In this document: piece by piece, positions 1,284 through 9,342 of the stretch | How the letters are laid out: the number at the start of each line of letters is the position of its first letter | Position numbering within the stretch: position 1 is the first letter of the stretch | Virus record (IMG/VR): IMGVR_UViG_3300034355_000516 | Coordinates: 1-22,080 of that record | Origin: a virus | Reading direction: 5' to 3' (one strand) | Length of the DNA stretch: 22,080 nucleotides | Made by a program: the position numbers and the translations under genes | Notes under the pieces: model-generated | Databases searched by the model: none | Seen by the model: the letters and a program-made list of their open reading frames with translations, nothing else | Told to the model about the DNA's origin: nothing

Positions 1284-2432
1284 ATGTCTATAAGACAAAT
1301 GTTTCCGGGGAGTATTGTTAAGCCGGGGTTTAATCCTCTAGCGGCTCAAACGCCTTCGTACACATACTATTTGTATACTTGGGGACGTAATAATGATGGT
1401 CAATTGGGTCTTGGAAACACTACAAGTTATTCATCACCCAAGCAAGTTGGTTCACTGACTACGTGGTTAAACATTGCCAATGGTTATGCTTTTACATTAG
1501 CCACTAAGACTGATGGAACCTTATGGTCTTGGGGTACTGGAGCGCAAGGCCAATTGGGTTTAGGTAATACAACCAGTTATTCTTCTCCAAAACAAATTGG
1601 GGCTTTAACAAATTGGGCGAGCGTGGGGTGCGCTTCGCAAGCATCTTTTGCTGTTAAAACAGATGGCACTATATGGTCTTGGGGGGCAGGTGGTAGCGGT
1701 AAACTTGGACTTGGAAACACTACATCTTATTCTTCCCCAAAACAAATTGGCTCTCTTACAAACTGGTCAAAAGTAATTGGTGGAACACAATCGGGTTTTG
1801 CAATTAAGACTGACGGAACTTTATGGGCGTGGGGAGTTAATACCAATGGACTTTTGGGTTTAGGAGACACTGTAAGTAGATCATCTCCTGTGCAAGTTGG
1901 GGTTTTAACTAACTGGTTAAATCTTTCCGCTGGTTATTACAACACACTTGCCAGTAAAACTGACGGCACTCTGTGGTCTTGGGGTAGAGGTAGCTTTGGT
2001 TGTTTAGGTCTTGGAAACACAACCAACTACTCGTCACCAAAACAAATTGGTGCATTGACTTCATGGCTAAATGTTGCATCTGCTTATTTTGCTGGTTTTG
2101 CAATTAAAACAAATGGAACTGCTTGGGCTTGGGGGCAAAATAACGTTGGTCAATTGGGGCAGGGAAATACAACAAATTATTCTTCACCTATGCAAATAGG
2201 TGCTTTAACAAATTGGTCAACAATTTCATCTACACCTTCACTTGGAGGCTCATCAACAGCAGTTCTTGCAATCAAAACAGATGATACTTTGTGGGCATGG
2301 GGATCTAATGCACAAGGGCAATTAGGATCAGGAAATTTAATTGACAGATCATCTCCAGTGCAAGTAGGAGCCTTAAGCACTTGGGAGAGTGTTAAGTGTT
2401 TTGGGCAATTTGTAACAGCACTCGGATACTAA
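1284..2432 (+). CDS. RCC1-repeat seven-bladed propeller protein, type A (copy 1)
   Basis: A 382-residue protein made almost entirely of seven RCC1 repeats of about 50 residues, predicted to fold as one seven-bladed beta-propeller. Each blade has the pattern LW(S/A)WG, then GQLGLGNTT, then YSSPKQ(V/I)G, LTNW and KTDG. The N-terminus (about 1-28) is not repeat and contains KPGFNPL, shared with the gene at 5381; this is probably an attachment module. Blades 4 and 7 carry RSSPVQVG instead of YSSPKQ. RCC1 propellers bind proteins or ligands in cellular organisms; in this tail region a receptor-binding or decorating role is inferred. The start is supported by GAGGAA at 1274-1279. No membrane segment or catalytic motif is seen. 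Confidence 0.85.
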   Translation: MSIRQMFPGSIVKPGFNPLAAQTPSYTYYLYTWGRNNDGQLGLGNTTSYSSPKQVGSLTTWLNIANGYAFTLATKTDGTLWSWGTGAQGQLGLGNTTSYSSPKQIGALTNWASVGCASQASFAVKTDGTIWSWGAGGSGKLGLGNTTSYSSPKQIGSLTNWSKVIGGTQSGFAIKTDGTLWAWGVNTNGLLGLGDTVSRSSPVQVGVLTNWLNLSAGYYNTLASKTDGTLWSWGRGSFGCLGLGNTTNYSSPKQIGALTSWLNVASAYFAGFAIKTNGTAWAWGQNNVGQLGQGNTTNYSSPMQIGALTNWSTISSTPSLGGSSTAVLAIKTDDTLWAWGSNAQGQLGSGNLIDRSSPVQVGALSTWESVKCFGQFVTALGY

Positions 2433-2433
2433 T

Positions 2434-3615
2434 ATGCCAATAACATACCCCGGCGTTCAATACTCAGGCATCTGGACAATGCAACAGGTGAATGCCGCTA
2501 TTGCGGCTGGGACTTGGCCTTCACCGCCTGTGACGGGGCCTCGTTTGTTTTCATGGGGTGATAACAACCAAGGGGCGCTTGGGCTTGGTAATATAACTAA
2601 CTACTCCTCCCCTAAGCAAGTTGGTTCATTAACAGATTGGCTACAAATATGTGCTGGTGGTTATAACAATACATCTGCCGCCATTAAAACTGATGGTACT
2701 TTATGGACTTGGGGTTACAACGGAAATGGGCAACTTGGTCTTGGTAACACTACTAATTACTCAAGTCCAAAACAAGTTGGGGCTTTAACTGGTTGGACTC
2801 AAGTTTCTAGTGGTAGATTTAACATGACTGCCGCAATAAAAAGTAATGGAACGTTGTGGTTAATGGGCGCTGGCTCTTATGGACAATTAGGCTTAGGAAA
2901 TACAACTAGCTATTCCTCTCCAAAGCAACTTGGTGCGCTGACAAATTGGGCTTCTGTCTCTTGTGCTAATGCCGGGGTAAGAGCAATAAAAACTGATGGT
3001 ACGCTTTGGGCATGGGGTTATAACGTACTTGGCGCACTTGGAGATGGAACATTAACAAATCGTTCTTCCCCAGTTCAAATTGGTGCATTAACAACTTGGG
3101 CAAAAGTTGGTGCTGTTGGTAATTTTACACTTGCCATTACAACAAGTGGAGCTTTGTACGCTTGGGGTGGAAATAGTACAGGCTCTTTGGGTTTAGGCAA
3201 CACTACGTATTACTCTTCCCCTAAACAAGTTGGTTCATTAACTAATTGGGCTTATGTTGCTCCGGGAATGTCCTCCTCAATTGCTTTAAAAACTGATGGT
3301 ACGCTATGGGCTTGGGGATTAAATAGCAGTGGTCAACTTGGTTTTGGTAATCAGACAAACTACTCTTCTCCAAAACAAGTTGGCTCTTTAACTACTTGGT
3401 TAAAAATTGCTGGAACCTATACAAGTACTTATGCCATCACAACATCTGGAGCATTATATGCTTGGGGTTCTAATAATGTTGGTCAATTAGGTCTTGGAAA
3501 CATAACAGCATATTCATCGCCTAAACAAGTTGGCTCACTTACAACATGGACTACATTAAGTACATTTGGTGGTAATGCAAACAACATTTTGGCAATAGGT
3601 GTAAACACAGTATGA
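2434..3615 (+). CDS. RCC1-repeat seven-bladed propeller protein, type B (copy 1)
   Basis: A 393-residue protein with a different N-terminal module from its neighbour: about 40 residues containing GVQYSGIW and AAGTWP, shared with the gene at 6519. Seven RCC1 blades follow to the C-terminus. Blade 3 has LWLMG where the others have a WG ending, and blade 4 has the RSSPVQIG variant with a shortened GDGTLTN loop. Blades 4 and 6 end in TTSG instead of KTDG. The start ATG is one base after the preceding stop and has no strong Shine-Dalgarno sequence, so translation is probably coupled. It overlaps the sulfotransferase gene by ATGA. The likely role is a tail or appendage propeller paired with the type A protein. 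Confidence 0.85.
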   Translation: MPITYPGVQYSGIWTMQQVNAAIAAGTWPSPPVTGPRLFSWGDNNQGALGLGNITNYSSPKQVGSLTDWLQICAGGYNNTSAAIKTDGTLWTWGYNGNGQLGLGNTTNYSSPKQVGALTGWTQVSSGRFNMTAAIKSNGTLWLMGAGSYGQLGLGNTTSYSSPKQLGALTNWASVSCANAGVRAIKTDGTLWAWGYNVLGALGDGTLTNRSSPVQIGALTTWAKVGAVGNFTLAITTSGALYAWGGNSTGSLGLGNTTYYSSPKQVGSLTNWAYVAPGMSSSIALKTDGTLWAWGLNSSGQLGFGNQTNYSSPKQVGSLTTWLKIAGTYTSTYAITTSGALYAWGSNNVGQLGLGNITAYSSPKQVGSLTTWTTLSTFGGNANNILAIGVNTV

Positions 3616-5384
3616 ACAAAACACTGCACTTCCTCTCTGGCATTCCTCGTTCTGGCTCAACAGTCCTTGCGGCTATTTTGAACCAGAACCCAATGACTCA
3701 TGTATCCACCACATCTGGGCTTGTCCACGCCCTTGATGGCTTGGCTAATACATGGCACTCAGCGGGTCTTCTCAATGAGAACGACCCCACCAGAGAGAAA
3801 CTTGCACAAACCATGCGTGGGTGCATTGATGCGTTTTACGCTGATACAGACAAGCCTGTCATCATTGACAAGTCTCGTGGTTGGCCTATTCCCCAGATCA
3901 TGGGTGCTATGTCTCAGGTGATTGGTCGCCCATGCAAGGTGATCGCTACGGTTCGTCCTGTTCCTGACTGTATGGCTTCATTTGTCCGTGTGGCAAAGCC
4001 TGCTGATCTGGATGAGTTCATGTATTCAGGCCAGTTAGCTGACCACCTGAAAGCCGCTTACCTGTCTTTAGAAGCTGGCTACGCCGCCATGCCAGAGAAC
4101 TTCTTGATGGTTGAATACGACAAGCTGTTGGCTGATCCCCGCGCAGAACTTGCCCGTATCCATGAGTTCTTGGAACTGCCTGAATACGATTACGACTTCT
4201 CCAACATTGACGGCTCGTCAGTTAAAGAAGACGATGAGAATCTGCACGGCTACGCTGGTATGCACGATGTCAAGCCAGTCTTGGCTAAACAGCACAACGA
4301 CAAGTCCAAAGACCTGTTAAAGCACCACTACAACCAGTTTTGCCAGCCAGAGTTCTGGAGTGGTAATGCACGGACGATGCCTGAGTTGGATGACCTTGAT
4401 CTACAGGTAGCCGCAGGCAAGATGGGTGATTTTGCTGAAGGCTGGAGACTGTCTGAGAAGCTCCACGCAGAGCGTCCTAACGACCACCGTGCGGCTTATA
4501 ACCGTTCATGGTATCTACTCAAACAGGGTCAGATTGGTGAAGGCTACAAGCAGATGGATCGCGGTCGCTACTGCGGGATCATTGGTGAGCGCCGCCCAGA
4601 CACACCAGCCCCTGAGTGGGACGGTAAGACCAAAGGTACGATTCTCTTGTACTGCGACCACGGCTTGGGCGATCAGATTCACCAAGTGCGCTATGCCCGT
4701 GATCTAGTGGCTAGGGGTAATAAGGTAGTGGTCTGCTGCTCAGGTCAACTGGCTGGCCTGTTCTCAGGCATTGAAGGTGTATCCGCTGTTGTTCAAGTTG
4801 GTGCTGAGTTTGGCGTGTTCCACGACTTCTGGTGCTATGGTATGACAGCCCCTAACTACCTTGGTTATGAGATGTCAGACCTGCGCGGCGATGCTTACAT
4901 CACTAAGCCTACGACCATCAAAGGCCGTAAGAAACGCATCGGTATCCGCTGGCAGGGCAACAGTAAGTTTGAAGACGACCACAACAAACGCTTCCCCTAC
5001 GATTTGTTGTTTGCCGCAGTAAAAGATGCTGACGCAGAATTCATTTCTTTACAGCGTGATGAGGGTGCAGATGCTTGCCCAACATGGGTAAAACAAGTAC
5101 CATTAAACACATGGGCAGACACCCAAGCTGCGGTAGCAAGTTGTGATCTGGTGATCTCTTCTTGCACATCTGTCAGCCATTTGGCGGCGGCTATGGGCGT
5201 TGAGACTTGGGTAGTGATTCCAGTGATGGGCTACTACCTGTATGCGTTAGACGGCGACAAGACACCTTATTACGACACCATGACTTTATTCAGGCAAGAA
5301 GTATTTGGCGAATGGGAAGCTCCGTTTGAGAAGATCAAGGAGCGTTTAAACGCTAACCGTGCCGCACTGAGGAGCGTAGCGTGA
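3612..5384 (+). CDS. Sulfotransferase - TPR - GT9/GT41-like glycosyltransferase fusion
   Basis: A 590-residue fusion of two enzymes. Residues 1-245 look like a PAPS-dependent sulfotransferase: the 5'-phosphosulfate loop is IPRSGST (11-17), and R115 with S123 has the spacing of the 3'-phosphate-binding pair. Residues about 265-320 resemble one or two TPR helices (AERPNDHRAAYNRSWYLLKQ). Residues about 340-590 resemble the GT-B fold of TPR-linked glycosyltransferases related to heptosyltransferases (GT9) and O-GlcNAc-type enzymes, with EFISLQRDEG at about 476-485 and DLVISSCTSVSHLAAAMG at 512-529. It is cytoplasmic, with no signal peptide. It lies between two pairs of propeller genes and is joined to both sides by ATGA and GTGA overlaps. 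It is visibly richer in G+C than the propeller genes, suggesting separate origin. The acceptor is unknown. Confidence 0.82.
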   Translation: MNKTLHFLSGIPRSGSTVLAAILNQNPMTHVSTTSGLVHALDGLANTWHSAGLLNENDPTREKLAQTMRGCIDAFYADTDKPVIIDKSRGWPIPQIMGAMSQVIGRPCKVIATVRPVPDCMASFVRVAKPADLDEFMYSGQLADHLKAAYLSLEAGYAAMPENFLMVEYDKLLADPRAELARIHEFLELPEYDYDFSNIDGSSVKEDDENLHGYAGMHDVKPVLAKQHNDKSKDLLKHHYNQFCQPEFWSGNARTMPELDDLDLQVAAGKMGDFAEGWRLSEKLHAERPNDHRAAYNRSWYLLKQGQIGEGYKQMDRGRYCGIIGERRPDTPAPEWDGKTKGTILLYCDHGLGDQIHQVRYARDLVARGNKVVVCCSGQLAGLFSGIEGVSAVVQVGAEFGVFHDFWCYGMTAPNYLGYEMSDLRGDAYITKPTTIKGRKKRIGIRWQGNSKFEDDHNKRFPYDLLFAAVKDADAEFISLQRDEGADACPTWVKQVPLNTWADTQAAVASCDLVISSCTSVSHLAAAMGVETWVVIPVMGYYLYALDGDKTPYYDTMTLFRQEVFGEWEAPFEKIKERLNANRAALRSVA

Positions 5385-6514
5385 GCTTTAGATATGCCGC
5401 TGGGATAAACAAGCCGGGTTTTAATCCGCTTGGAACCCAGACGACCACTTACTTATATAACTTATTTAGCTGGGGAAACAACGCTAGTGGGCAACTTGGT
5501 TTAAATAACAACACTTATTATTCCAGTCCTAAACAAGTTGGCTCGTTAACTACTTGGTCAGCAATTTCTGGCGGCAATCAATATGTTGTAGCTATTCAAA
5601 CAAATGGAACATTGTGGTCGTGGGGTGAAAACGGAAATGGTCAGCTTGGTTTTGGAAACACAACAGCTTACTCTTCCCCAAAACAAGTTGGCTCGTTAAC
5701 TACTTGGTCAAAAGCAAGTGCTAATTTTCGGTCATCTTTGGCAATAAAAACAGATGGAACTTTATGGTCGTGGGGGTGGAACAATTTAGGTCAATTAGGT
5801 TTAGGCGACAGAACAGATCGTTCTTCACCCATTCAAATTGGAGCTTTAACAACTTGGGCGACAGTATCTAATTCACCATACAGTAAACTTAATTTTGCTA
5901 TTACAACATCCGGCGCACTTTGGGGTTGGGGTCAGAATGCCAATGGTCAGTTAGGTTTAGGAAATACAACTTCTTACTCATCTCCAAAACAAGTTGGTGC
6001 GCTAACAAATTGGCTAAAGGTGGCTGGTGGAGCATACTTTACCCTTGCTGTAAAAACTGATGGCACATTGTGGTCATGGGGAAATAGCGCCTATGGACAA
6101 TTAGGGTTAGGTAACACAACAGAATACAATTCACCTAAACAAGTTGGCGCTTTAACAAGTTGGTTAAATATTTCCGCAAATTATGGAAGTTCGTTTGCTG
6201 TTAAAACAGATGGGACTATTTGGGCGTGGGGTAGAAATACTTCTGGGCAACTTGGCTTGGGAAATACTACAGATCGCAATTCTCCCGTGCAAATTGGTGC
6301 GTTAGCAAATTGGTTAACTGTATCGACAAGTGGAACAACTCAAGGTGCAATGGCCATTAAAACAGATGGAACTTTATGGGGTTGGGGTGCTAATGGTGAT
6401 GGTCAACTAGGGAATGGGAATATAACTACAACATCAAGCCCGATACAAGTTGGCGCATCAACTACTTGGTCTAAAGTAACTAGTTTAAATGGCGCTACAG
6501 TGGCAATAGGATAA
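5381..6514 (+). CDS. RCC1-repeat seven-bladed propeller protein, type A (copy 2)
   Basis: A 377-residue protein with the same plan as the gene at 1284: a short N-terminal module with KPGFNPL (about 11-17), then seven RCC1 blades. Blades 3, 6 and 7 have SSPIQIG, NSPVQIG and SSPIQVG instead of SSPKQ. Blade 1 has LGLNNNTYYSSP. The start is GTG at 5381, overlapping the preceding stop as GTGA, with GAGGAG at 5369-5374 six bases upstream; no ATG fits this position. Blades 1 and 2 share a 30-base perfect repeat at the DNA level (see the repeat entry), which points to recent blade duplication or gene conversion. The role is inferred as a tail or appendage component. Confidence 0.85.
   Translation: MSFRYAAGINKPGFNPLGTQTTTYLYNLFSWGNNASGQLGLNNNTYYSSPKQVGSLTTWSAISGGNQYVVAIQTNGTLWSWGENGNGQLGFGNTTAYSSPKQVGSLTTWSKASANFRSSLAIKTDGTLWSWGWNNLGQLGLGDRTDRSSPIQIGALTTWATVSNSPYSKLNFAITTSGALWGWGQNANGQLGLGNTTSYSSPKQVGALTNWLKVAGGAYFTLAVKTDGTLWSWGNSAYGQLGLGNTTEYNSPKQVGALTSWLNISANYGSSFAVKTDGTIWAWGRNTSGQLGLGNTTDRNSPVQIGALANWLTVSTSGTTQGAMAIKTDGTLWGWGANGDGQLGNGNITTTSSPIQVGASTTWSKVTSLNGATVAIG
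5531..5710 (+). repeat. 30-base perfect direct repeat inside RCC1 blades 1 and 2
   Basis: The bases at 5531-5560 are repeated exactly at 5681-5710, 150 bases apart, which is one 50-residue blade. Both encode the KQVGSLTTWS part of a blade. The bases just before and just after differ between copies. Other blades in the window encode similar residues with many synonymous changes, so this exact stretch stands out as recent duplication or conversion. Confidence 0.85.
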
Positions 6515-6518
6515 CGTA

Positions 6519-7694
6519 ATGGCAACAGCACTCGTATCAGGCGTTCAATACTCAGGTATCTGGAACATCAGCAGTCAAGCCAATGCTAAGGCGGCGGGGA
6601 CTTGGCCTTTAGCGCCTGTGCCGGGTTTATATTCATGGGGTAGAAATACTGATGGTCAGCTTGGCTTAGGTAATACAACATCATATTCAAGTCCAAAACA
6701 AGTTGGCTCTTTAACAAACTGGGCTTCAATATCTACAAATTCTTATAGCGTACATACTTTAGCTGTTAAAACAGACGGTACGCTTTGGGCTTGGGGAAGT
6801 AATTCGTATGGTCAACTTGGATTAGGAAATGTAACTTATTATTCTTCCCCAAAACAAGTTGGCGCTTTGACTGCTTGGTTAAAAATAACTACTGCGTATG
6901 CCGCTAGTTTTTCTATAAAAACTGATGGGACATTGTGGTCATGGGGAAACAATACTTATGGTAAATTAGGATTAAATAACGAAACAAATTATTCAAGTCC
7001 AAAACAAATAGGCGCTTTGACTAATTGGTCAAATATTGCTGGTGGAAATTTTGGATGCATAGCCATTAAAACAGATGGAACTATTTGGACTTGGGGTTAT
7101 AACGCAGACGGCAGATTGGGGCTTGGTAATCTAACTAATTATTCTAGCCCCAAGCAAATTGGTGCATTAACTACTTGGTTAAAAGTTTTTTCTGGTTACT
7201 CTAGTGGTTTTGGAATCAATACAAGTGGGGCAATGTGGGGTTGGGGTAGAAATGGCGCTGGGCAACTAGGTTTGGGGGATGTCACTACCCGTTCATCTCC
7301 AGTTCAAATTGGAGCATTAACTACTTGGTCATCTGTTAGTAGTTCAGCGGGTGGAACATCTGCTAATGGATTTACTTTATCAACAAAAACAGACGGAACA
7401 TTATGGGGTTGGGGTATAAACGCCCATGGTCAACTAGGTTTAGGTAATACAACTCCATACTCCTCCCCAGTACAAGTTGGAAGTTTAACTACTTGGAGTT
7501 CTGTGGCGGGTGGTTCGTCTTCTACATTAGCAACTACTTCTGGCGGTGCTTTGTGGGCTTGGGGTCGAAATAACAATGGTCAATTAGGTCTAGGAAATAC
7601 AACCAATTATTCCTCACCAAAACAAGTAGGAAGCCTAACAAATTGGCTTACTATTGCTAGCGGCCCTTATTTCTGTATCGGTATTGCATCTTAA
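6519..7694 (+). CDS. RCC1-repeat seven-bladed propeller protein, type B (copy 2)
   Basis: A 391-residue protein with the type B N-terminal module (GVQYSGIW at about 8-15, then AAGTWP) followed by seven RCC1 blades. Blade 5 is the RSSPVQIG variant and has a longer loop (SSSAGGTSANG); blade 6 has YSSPVQ. Blades 4 and 6 have TSG or TSGG endings rather than KTDG. The start ATG lies four bases after the preceding stop, with AGGATA at about 6508-6513. It ends a block of four propeller genes; the next gene start downstream is interrupted by a homing endonuclease. Compared with the sulfotransferase gene, sampled lines are AT-rich (17 of 60 G+C at 6961-7020). Confidence 0.85.
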   Translation: MATALVSGVQYSGIWNISSQANAKAAGTWPLAPVPGLYSWGRNTDGQLGLGNTTSYSSPKQVGSLTNWASISTNSYSVHTLAVKTDGTLWAWGSNSYGQLGLGNVTYYSSPKQVGALTAWLKITTAYAASFSIKTDGTLWSWGNNTYGKLGLNNETNYSSPKQIGALTNWSNIAGGNFGCIAIKTDGTIWTWGYNADGRLGLGNLTNYSSPKQIGALTTWLKVFSGYSSGFGINTSGAMWGWGRNGAGQLGLGDVTTRSSPVQIGALTTWSSVSSSAGGTSANGFTLSTKTDGTLWGWGINAHGQLGLGNTTPYSSPVQVGSLTTWSSVAGGSSSTLATTSGGALWAWGRNNNGQLGLGNTTNYSSPKQVGSLTNWLTIASGPYFCIGIAS

Positions 7695-7724
7695 AAAATT
7701 AACATTTTTAACAAGGAGTCTTAA

Positions 7725-7775
7725 ATGACACATTATGTACAAGTCCTCAATGGTGAGGTCAAACAAGTGATATAA
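7725..7775 (+). pseudogene. 16-codon remnant or leader ORF copying the start of the gene at 8390
   Basis: After AAGGAG at 7713-7718, an ATG opens a 16-residue frame, [16 protein letters not shown], that stops at 7773-7775. The intact gene at 8390 begins MTHYVQVIGNEIKQVW, with 11 of 16 residues identical. The DNA matches at 30 of 48 bases, many differences being third-position or conservative, so the two copies come from diverged alleles and not from a recent copy event. The Shine-Dalgarno region upstream is also similar. The stop lies one base before the GTG of the endonuclease, so translating this short frame may feed ribosomes into it. It could be a broken 5' end left by endonuclease insertion or a functional coupling leader. 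Confidence 0.75.
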
Positions 7776-7776
7776 T
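7768..7776 (+). promoter_or_regulatory. Possible extended -10 promoter (TGATATAAT)
   Basis: The sequence at 7768-7776 is a perfect match to a bacterial sigma70 extended -10 element, TGnTATAAT. No good -35 hexamer is seen about 17 bases upstream, which extended -10 promoters can tolerate. A start site about seven bases downstream would fall at the ATG at 7783, giving a nearly leaderless endonuclease transcript. It spans the junction where the remnant ORF ends. It could also be chance in an AT-rich stretch. Confidence 0.35.
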
Positions 7777-8379
7777 GTGTGCATGGACGCACACTACTGT
7801 TACTACATTTACGCTTATCTACGGGATGACGGGACTCCTTATTACATAGGAAAAGGGAAAGGCAGGCGCTTACGAGCACCGCACAAGAAGAACATTGCCG
7901 TTCCCAAGAATCGTACAAGAATTGTTTTGATGGAATCTAATTTGTCGGAAGTTGGTGCACTGGCGTTGGAACGCAGATACATTGATTGGTACGGTAGAAA
8001 AGATATTGGCACAGGGATATTAAGAAATTTGACTGATGGTGGAGAAGGTCAGTCTGGGCGGGTTTTATCTGAAGACCACAAGGCAAAGATAAAAGCGTCA
8101 TTGATTAAGAATGCTTTTTGGATTGGCAAAATAGTTCCAGATGATGTGCGGCAAAAGATGTCGGTTGGAAGAACTGGAATGAAGTTATCCGAGGAGCATA
8201 AAAACAACATTCGTCAGTCTTTGCTTGGTAAAATTAAATCTGAAGAAACAAGGTTGAAGTTGAGCCAAGCAAACAAAGGCAAACCAAGCAACCGCAAGGG
8301 TGTTAAAGTTTCCGATGAAACAAGGCAACGAATGATTGAAGCTCGAAACAAAAGAGTTTTGAAAACTGTTAATTTTTAA
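7777..8379 (+). CDS. GIY-YIG homing endonuclease with NUMOD3 repeats
   Basis: A protein of 200 residues from GTG 7777, or 198 from ATG 7783. The N-terminal GIY-YIG nuclease domain has YIYAYL (10-15) and [10 protein letters not shown] (22-31), with the expected Arg at 30 or 31, Glu65 in [11 protein letters not shown] as the likely metal ligand, and RNLTDGGEG at 83-91. The C-terminal half holds three to four NUMOD3-type DNA-binding motifs of the form S(E/D)E(H/T)(K/R) followed by a Lys-rich helix. Such enzymes cut a specific target and spread by repair. There is no separate Shine-Dalgarno; expression may depend on coupling to the 16-codon frame or on the possible -10 element. Its stop overlaps the Shine-Dalgarno of the next gene. 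It sits between two versions of that gene's start. Confidence 0.88.
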
Positions 8380-8389
8380 GGAGTAAGTT

Positions 8390-8779
8390 ATGACACACTA
8401 TGTCCAAGTAATTGGGAACGAAATTAAACAAGTATGGGACACACCTCCCGCAGAAGGCGTAGGCAACAACGGCTGGCGCAACGCTGTCGAAGTTCGTCCT
8501 GCCATTCAAGCTGGTCGCCAAGGCTACACAGCCCACCGCTTTGACTTGAACGCTGACCCCGTGCAGATCATCTGGGACACCTACGAAATCTCCGTAGATG
8601 ACCGCAAAGGTGGCATGAAGTCTAACGCTGGCTTTGAGTTCCAGATGGTTGTGAACCAACAGGCTCGTAACCCTGCGACTTATGATGCCGCTGCCATTGA
8701 AACTGCTCGTCAGGCTATGGTTGCCAAGCAAGCCGCAATTGATGCCTGCACTACGCACGACCAGCTTGACGCTCTGTGA
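8390..8779 (+). CDS. Conserved phage protein, likely tail-associated; probable homing target gene
   Basis: A 129-residue soluble protein starting MTHYVQVIGNEIKQVWDTPP, with AAGGAG at 8378-8383 supporting the start. The C-terminal part is helical and Ala/Gln-rich (ARQAMVAKQAAIDACTTHDQL). I recognise the general type from aquatic phage tail regions, where it may assist tail-fibre assembly, but cannot assign a family. Its first 15 codons are duplicated in diverged form upstream of the endonuclease, so this gene is the probable homing target. It overlaps the methyltransferase gene by GTGA. Confidence 0.7.
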   Translation: MTHYVQVIGNEIKQVWDTPPAEGVGNNGWRNAVEVRPAIQAGRQGYTAHRFDLNADPVQIIWDTYEISVDDRKGGMKSNAGFEFQMVVNQQARNPATYDAAAIETARQAMVAKQAAIDACTTHDQLDAL

Positions 8780-9342
8780 AGCTCAATCTTGGCTGTGGAT
8801 ATAACAAGCTAGACGGCTACATCAATGTAGACCATGACCCTCTATGCAATCCTGATATGGTTGCAGACCTAGAGGGTACGCTCCCATTTGAAGACAGCAC
8901 GGTTGATGAGATCGTGTTGTCTCATGTGCTTGAGCATCTTGGGCAGGACACCAAGACATACCTCAATATCTGGCGCGAGTTCTATCGTGTGCTAAAAGAT
9001 GGTGGCAAGGTTCATATTGTCGTACCCCACCACAATCACGACAACTTTCACCACGACCCTACCCATGTTCGCAAAGTCACGCCTCTTGGGGTTGATATGT
9101 TCAGCCAAGAGAGAAACATGGAAACTATCCGCACTGGTGGTCAAGAGACTACGCTAGGGTTACAGGTAGGGATTGACATTGGTGTAACGGAAGTTGGCTA
9201 CGATCTGACCCCTTGGTTTCAACAGCATGTTGCAGGAAAACCACAGGATTGGGCAGAGCGTGAGTTGAATAAGTACAACAACACTTGTTTTCAGGTGAAA
9301 ATAAATGCCCAAGCATTTAAACCACCAAGGAGCAAAAGATGA
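8776..9342 (+). CDS. Class I SAM-dependent methyltransferase
   Basis: A 188-residue protein with a Rossmann-type methyltransferase core. Motif I is LNLGCGYNKLDGYINVD (3-19), an acidic residue ends strand 2 near D19, and LSHVLEHL at 48-55 is the post-II motif of Methyltransf_11-like enzymes. FYRVLKDGGKVHIVVP at about 69-84 is the usual strand 5 region. The His-rich stretch HHNHDNFHHDPTH (85-97) is notable. The start is GTG 8776, overlapping the preceding stop (GTGA). The family often modifies sugars, small molecules or proteins, and the acceptor cannot be told here. Being at the head of a sugar-nucleotide cassette, sugar methylation is a plausible inference. There is no sign of a DNA methyltransferase target domain. 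Confidence 0.8.
   Translation: MKLNLGCGYNKLDGYINVDHDPLCNPDMVADLEGTLPFEDSTVDEIVLSHVLEHLGQDTKTYLNIWREFYRVLKDGGKVHIVVPHHNHDNFHHDPTHVRKVTPLGVDMFSQERNMETIRTGGQETTLGLQVGIDIGVTEVGYDLTPWFQQHVAGKPQDWAERELNKYNNTCFQVKINAQAFKPPRSKR

Follow-up and report, generated by a model that had tools for sequence, protein, structure and literature searches.

The virus record IMGVR_UViG_3300034355_000516, which has 22,080 bases and is here called the window, contains a homing endonuclease gene inserted after base 2 of codon 15 (base 44) of a conserved phage gene encoding 129 aa. Behind the endonuclease lies a reworded copy of the severed gene start, and that copy is, as far as alignments of related loci tell, part of the moving unit and not a one-off local repair. 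We consider it likely that the whole is a mobile homing cassette that brings with it a cleavage-resistant repair of the 5′ end of its own target, although we infer both cleavage and resistance from sequence. The elements of the locus are as follows (window coordinates).

7713..7718, + strand: native Shine-Dalgarno sequence (SD) AAGGAG of the target gene, read directly; position and sequence are kept in endonuclease-free relatives
7725..7768, + strand: what remains of the native target gene start, codons 1-14 and two bases of the next, to the left of the break; 44/44 bases identical to contig L031
7725..7775, + strand: 16-codon frame, ATG at 7725 and stop TAA at 7773-7775, read directly; possible leader
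7769..8433, + strand: inserted unit of 665 bp (endonuclease, SD and restored 5′ end); excision yields an uninterrupted gene start
7783..8379, + strand: GIY-YIG/NUMOD3 homing endonuclease, 198 aa (Pfam, PHROG, predicted fold, dN versus dS)
8378..8383, + strand: SD that serves the restored gene and overlaps the stop codon of the endonuclease, read directly
8390..8433, + strand: restored start of the target gene, reworded; 14/44 bases unlike the native copy
8390..8779, + strand: target gene, 129 aa, in which a restored 5′ end is joined to the native body; viral contigs encode 77 relatives

Anatomy of the interrupted gene

The original prediction described two gene starts alike at 11/16 residues and 30/48 bases, figures that we reproduced exactly; in the 44 nt that precede the break, 30/44 bases agree. 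Its placement of the insertion after about codon 15 can now be refined to the second base of that codon. Excising 7769-8433 leaves ...CAAACAAGT|ATGGGACACACC, which is the L031 sequence across the first 69 nt, and beyond the start the gene body of the window is closest to L001. The hybrid gene, with its ATG at 8390, begins MTHYVQVIGNEIKQVW.

The same anatomy recurs in other contigs. The 16-codon frame has its stop at the equal position in L003, L006, L008, L065 and L010; insertion point and length of the unit are matched in the first four of these, and L010 matches the point with a longer endonuclease. The endonuclease ORF of the window, ending with a TAA at 8379, could start at GTG 7777 or ATG 7783, and we take the latter as more likely because homologues have the corresponding ATG in common.

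The junction at 7768-7776 creates TGATATAAT, an extended -10-like sequence built from recipient and cassette bases (TATAAT is formed at 7771-7776), with TGATATGAT as its counterpart in L006 and TAATATAAT in L010. A promoter and terminator scan returned no signal exceeding shuffles. Left of the insertion an I-TevI-like CNNNG cut motif (CAATG) can be seen by eye, too short to weigh.

Native and restored starts among relatives

Relatives of the target protein in viral contigs number 77, and the comparison covered 64 endonuclease-free loci whose ATG start is complete. All 64 have a single start and none carries two in tandem, so that the sequence checks named with the original prediction speak in its favour. 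The copy at 7725 fits them far better than the one at 8390: it shows 0/44 mismatches to L031 and one to each of L001, L018 and L049, whereas the 8390 copy is 3 bases away from L007/L009 and at least 9 from all other endonuclease-free alleles. The resemblance of the two starts is therefore real and not due to chance, the left copy being identical to an uninterrupted gene. Its 44/44 identity to an endonuclease-free allele, together with the lack of a second start in the 64 free relatives, marks the left, broken start by this comparison as the native one.

This pattern holds beyond the window. Native-side copies differ from endonuclease-free alleles at 0-1/44 bases in 6/6 readable units, whereas the distances of restored copies to the nearest free allele are 3, 5, 7, 8, 9 and 11, never below 3; free alleles themselves mostly have a non-identical neighbour just one base away. 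The native starts of the units fall into four haplotypes (window and L065; L006 and L008; L003; L010) and the restored starts into three types, namely window, L002 and L003 (3-5 bases off the nearest free allele), L006, L008 and L065 (7-9), and L010 (11). The proposal that the 5′ end was restored from a diverged allele is accordingly plausible for the window type, where L007 comes within 3/44 differences, while the other two types, at 7-11 differences, have no visible source. L007 and L009, with a native leader and a start near the restored start of the window, could represent the source of that start or phages that have lost the unit.

Distribution and joint movement of the unit

Six further contigs hold the unit: L003, L006, L008, L065, L010 and, with its end only, L002. 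The endonuclease proteins are 91-95% identical to that of the window in L003, L006, L008 and L065 and 80% identical in L010. Scanning the viral collection twice with DNA patterns returned no further copies. The seven copies represent two endonuclease lineages, so unit counts are not phylogenetically independent. In each readable unit the insertion point is constant, after CAAGT, or after CAGGT in L010. Window-type insertions are in 5/5 cases found in start class CTCAATGGTGAGGTMAAACAAGT, a class that comprises 7/50 dereplicated free alleles, and the L010 unit sits in the GNEV start class. Such confinement to one allele class is an indirect hint of a putative site-specific cleavage of the uninterrupted allele.

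A comparison of L008 and L065 separates the history of the unit from that of the gene. Their endonucleases are 98.3% identical (dS 0.06) and their restored starts differ at 1/44 bases, whereas their gene bodies are 79.7% identical (dS 1.3) and the upstream RCC1 genes are not alignable. With the unit at about 98% and the body at about 80% identity, endonuclease and restored start therefore appear to travel together. The L065 body is 97.7% identical to that of endonuclease-free L018, and the L010 body likewise to that of endonuclease-free L005. When the flanks are joined, L065 differs from L018 at 6 of 264 bases and L010 from L005 at 7 of 264, against 18 and 16 differences, respectively, for the restored genes. 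Judged from these alignments, endonuclease and restored 5′ end have moved jointly into different backgrounds.

One sample number, 3300032291, is common to L008, which has the unit, and L047, an empty allele of the target class.

Among 71 loci with the endonuclease or a relative, scanned for similar flanking peptides, only such units stood far above the null, except for one tRNA-array artefact, and none of the 71 carried a gene end at any other target. The artefact, L161, was rejected as a second case of flanking duplication, its similar peptides being tRNA paralogues in a tRNA array.

The endonuclease

The protein between the two starts had been called a GIY-YIG/NUMOD3 endonuclease, and domain searches bear this out. 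NUMOD3 DNA-binding motifs are matched by Pfam in two stretches (PF07460, 2.2e-14); Pfam gave no GIY-YIG match at E≤1, and this domain is recognised by motif, PHROG and structure comparison. The N-terminal part shows YIY...YYIG followed by Arg, a conserved Glu (E63) and Asn (N82), residues that are invariant in 7 homologues bar the first Ile. The PHROG match is 314, 'homing endonuclease' (1.1e-12), and a low-confidence model (pLDDT 59) has the GIY-YIG domains of PD-T4-3 and UvrC as its top structural matches (Z 4.8-5.9). Between the copies compared, dN is 0.004-0.038 and dS 0.06-0.41, a dN/dS of roughly 0.06-0.1, and by this measure the endonuclease is under purifying selection.

The two lineages differ at the C-terminus. 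The longer L010 protein (48-802) has a zinc-ribbon-like element, CPHC...WHFENC, followed by KFLRSKL; its ORF stops with ATGA across the restored ATG, and the bases equivalent to the SD are endonuclease code. The window-type ORF ends early without this element, and its last bases, TTTTGAAAACTGTTAATTTTTAAGGAG, are almost identical to L010 DNA but read in a different frame. In window-type units the restored gene draws its SD region from the bases left over from the lost C-terminal element. The SD of the restored gene probably once lay within endonuclease code, and from this we infer that endonuclease and restored start may long have been one unit.

No confirmed relative of the endonuclease was found in bacterial genome contigs. 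Of the other endonucleases seen in full context, the nearest (48%) is located at 3001-3663 of L085, beside psbA in a probable cyanophage, and its twin L084 shows no flanking duplication. A related GIY-YIG/NUMOD3 endonuclease lies within the phage tRNA array of L161 (2486-2995).

A proposed model of homing with rescue

We propose that the endonuclease would cut uninterrupted target alleles near codon 15, with CTCAATGGTGAGGT-type uninterrupted DNA as the expected substrate of the window enzyme and the GNEV type as that of the L010 enzyme. The break would be repaired from a cassette-bearing genome, whose native-start left flank and gene-body right flank match the cut sides, and endonuclease and restored 5′ end would thereby be copied in together. 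The recipient's own start would remain behind as the 16-codon frame, and the cassette-borne ribosome-binding site and reworded first 15 codons would rebuild the full-length protein. Rewording would mostly keep the protein start while lowering the identity between the two copies, and the rebuilt gene would probably escape cutting as a result. Between genomes, the unit may also have been moved by ordinary homologous recombination.

Differences between native and restored starts are concentrated at gene bases 15-42, with the first eight bases spared, and the recognition site should therefore take in the stretch some 3-30 bases to the left of the insertion point. Window-type restored genes keep the CAAGT at the break and the site's right half unchanged, so that resistance, if present, must rest on the left half.

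The old start had been suggested to act as a coupling leader, and it may well do so, given that the anatomy fits. All readable units place the leader stop 7 nt upstream of the endonuclease ATG, which lacks an SD of its own, and we therefore think that the leader supplies endonuclease translation, probably by re-initiation.

A hypervariable start in empty alleles

Alleles that lack the endonuclease also vary in an uneven manner. Across 76 pairs of endonuclease-free alleles with bodies differing by no more than 6%, pairs that are not independent of one another, differences amount to 17.8% at bases 15-44, 26% at base 45, 0 at bases 46-48 and 1.9% at bases 49-132. The last left-hand difference falls at or before base 45 in 42/47 informative pairs. 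Single comparisons illustrate this in both directions: L023 and L027 are 99% identical in the body and 73% in the start, and L005 and L059 are 98% identical in the start and 71% in the body. By these counts the start of about 44 nt, hypervariable at about bases 11-45, exchanges as a separate piece whose edge is the insertion point. Such exchange fits repeated gain and loss of units or of resistant alleles, and ordinary recombination at the border of the variable RCC1 region would explain it as well.

A more far-reaching reading, which we offer tentatively and think somewhat doubtful, is a natural phage gene drive with a built-in resistant rescue, whose repeated gain and loss would have made the first 15 codons an exchangeable hypervariable patch. 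Loss of the unit by recombination between native and restored start would then leave a reworded, resistant allele, and new endonuclease types would follow with new rewordings.

The target gene and its surroundings

The restored target gene is an open frame with an SD, encodes a conserved protein and is predicted to be expressed. The 129-aa phage protein gives a confident model (pLDDT 93), for which Foldseek returned no credible solved structural relative (best E 1.9), and tblastn against cultured-phage records gave no match.

Upstream, at 1284-7694, four genes for RCC1-repeat proteins (1284, 2434, 5381 and 6519) surround a sulfotransferase gene (3612). The RCC1 genes adjoining the target differ between relatives, which suggests a fast-changing surface or receptor module, and the locus as a whole adjoins this very variable region, where exchange is common anyway. 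Immediately upstream of the target gene, L059 (about 4930-4971) and L060 (about 3864-3905) retain a leftover of some 11 codons of the sulfotransferase gene start (MNKTLHFLSGI, window 3612), fused to an RCC1-like tail; these broken starts apparently arose from recombination at short homology.

Alternative explanations

The strongest competitor to a self-mobile cassette is passive spread, in which the unit has no mobility of its own and is carried along by ordinary recombination of the variable, probably receptor-binding RCC1 module. In its favour, the unit-bearing loci compared do not have the same RCC1 genes upstream, and even where no endonuclease is present the first 44 nt are exchanged independently of the body. 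We nevertheless regard this as unlikely: the tract common to L008 and L065 starts in the 5′ leader and stops at the insertion point, with 22-32% identity on the RCC1 side (gapless alignment fails), 98% in the unit and 80% in the body; purifying selection maintains the endonuclease; and L010, in another start class and with an endonuclease 80% identical, has the same insertion point. An older tandem duplication of the gene or its start, with a free-standing endonuclease lodging later between the two and the first of them decaying, would account for two diverged starts and for a location between genes, where free-standing homing endonuclease genes often lie (PMC2988022). It is less probable still, as 0/64 endonuclease-free relatives have two starts, the native copy is broken at the identical base in every unit and undecayed up to there, and joining the flanks restores a single-copy gene.

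To two further explanations we give next to no credence. Were the endonuclease part of a group I intron or an intein, the two starts would be exon-like repeats, and a weak match to the group I intron endonuclease model TIGR01453 does exist, below cutoff; yet no Rfam intron match was obtained at E≤1 across 7500-8800, stop codons flank the endonuclease on both sides and the gene starts from an SD and ATG of its own, in agreement with the original prediction that neither intron nor intein is involved. Metagenomic contigs can mix alleles, and an assembly artefact could have joined two of them, but one constant junction and like anatomy in the window and five contigs of different sample numbers make such an origin hardly credible.

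Relation to known elements and implications

Homing elements are usually harmless through splicing, as introns and inteins, or through a position between genes. The strategy of carrying a gene end is already known from fungal mitochondria (PMC3630166; PMC7315562). Mobile endonuclease ORFs with duplicated gene ends occur in Allomyces atp6 and in Glomus atp6, atp9, cox2 and nad3, where the displaced native end is 91-98% identical to element-free relatives and the carried end 64-81% (PMC3630166). As in our unit, the endonuclease has entered a coding gene and is accompanied by a diverged copy of the displaced end that still conserves the protein; the fungal elements, however, are mitochondrial, carry the C-terminal end and are mostly LAGLIDADG, with GIY-YIG in atp9 (PMC3630166), whereas the phage unit carries a 5′ end with its own ribosome-binding site and is GIY-YIG. 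We see the likeness as one of design only, with the other gene end and mostly another nuclease family. Fungal mitochondrial introns with N-terminal duplications also carry an N-terminal copy of the interrupted gene, and exchange of gene starts through their gain and loss has been proposed; they are described as introns whose function is partly lost, with no known arrangement of ribosome-binding site and leader (PMC7315562).

Among phages, the free-standing seg and mob endonucleases of T4 make their cuts at a distance of hundreds to thousands of bp from the gene that encodes them (PMC2988022). They resemble the unit in placing a nuclease gene (GIY-YIG in seg) between phage frames without intron or intein and, in some T4 types, in apparent translational coupling (PMC2988022), but the unit sits inside its presumed target, after base 44. 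With mobE in Aeh1 nrdA and mobA in T4 gene 60, the host gene is split into two proteins and no gene end is carried (PMC2988022). HomeR, an engineered home-and-rescue system, is a synthetic Cas9 split drive in Drosophila that likewise inserts into its target while supplying the target's function (PMC7968924); the phage unit, by contrast, is natural and its drive activity putative. We found no earlier report of such a cassette in phages in the open-access literature.

Gene callers may misannotate or miss the leftover start. The phage unit seems to avoid harm by bringing along a reworded part of the gene that it breaks, a home-and-rescue logic within about 665 bp. Alleles with and without the cassette are at hand, as are three rewordings and a well-defined target class, so that both the presumed uncuttability of the rescue and the possible resistance of targets become testable.
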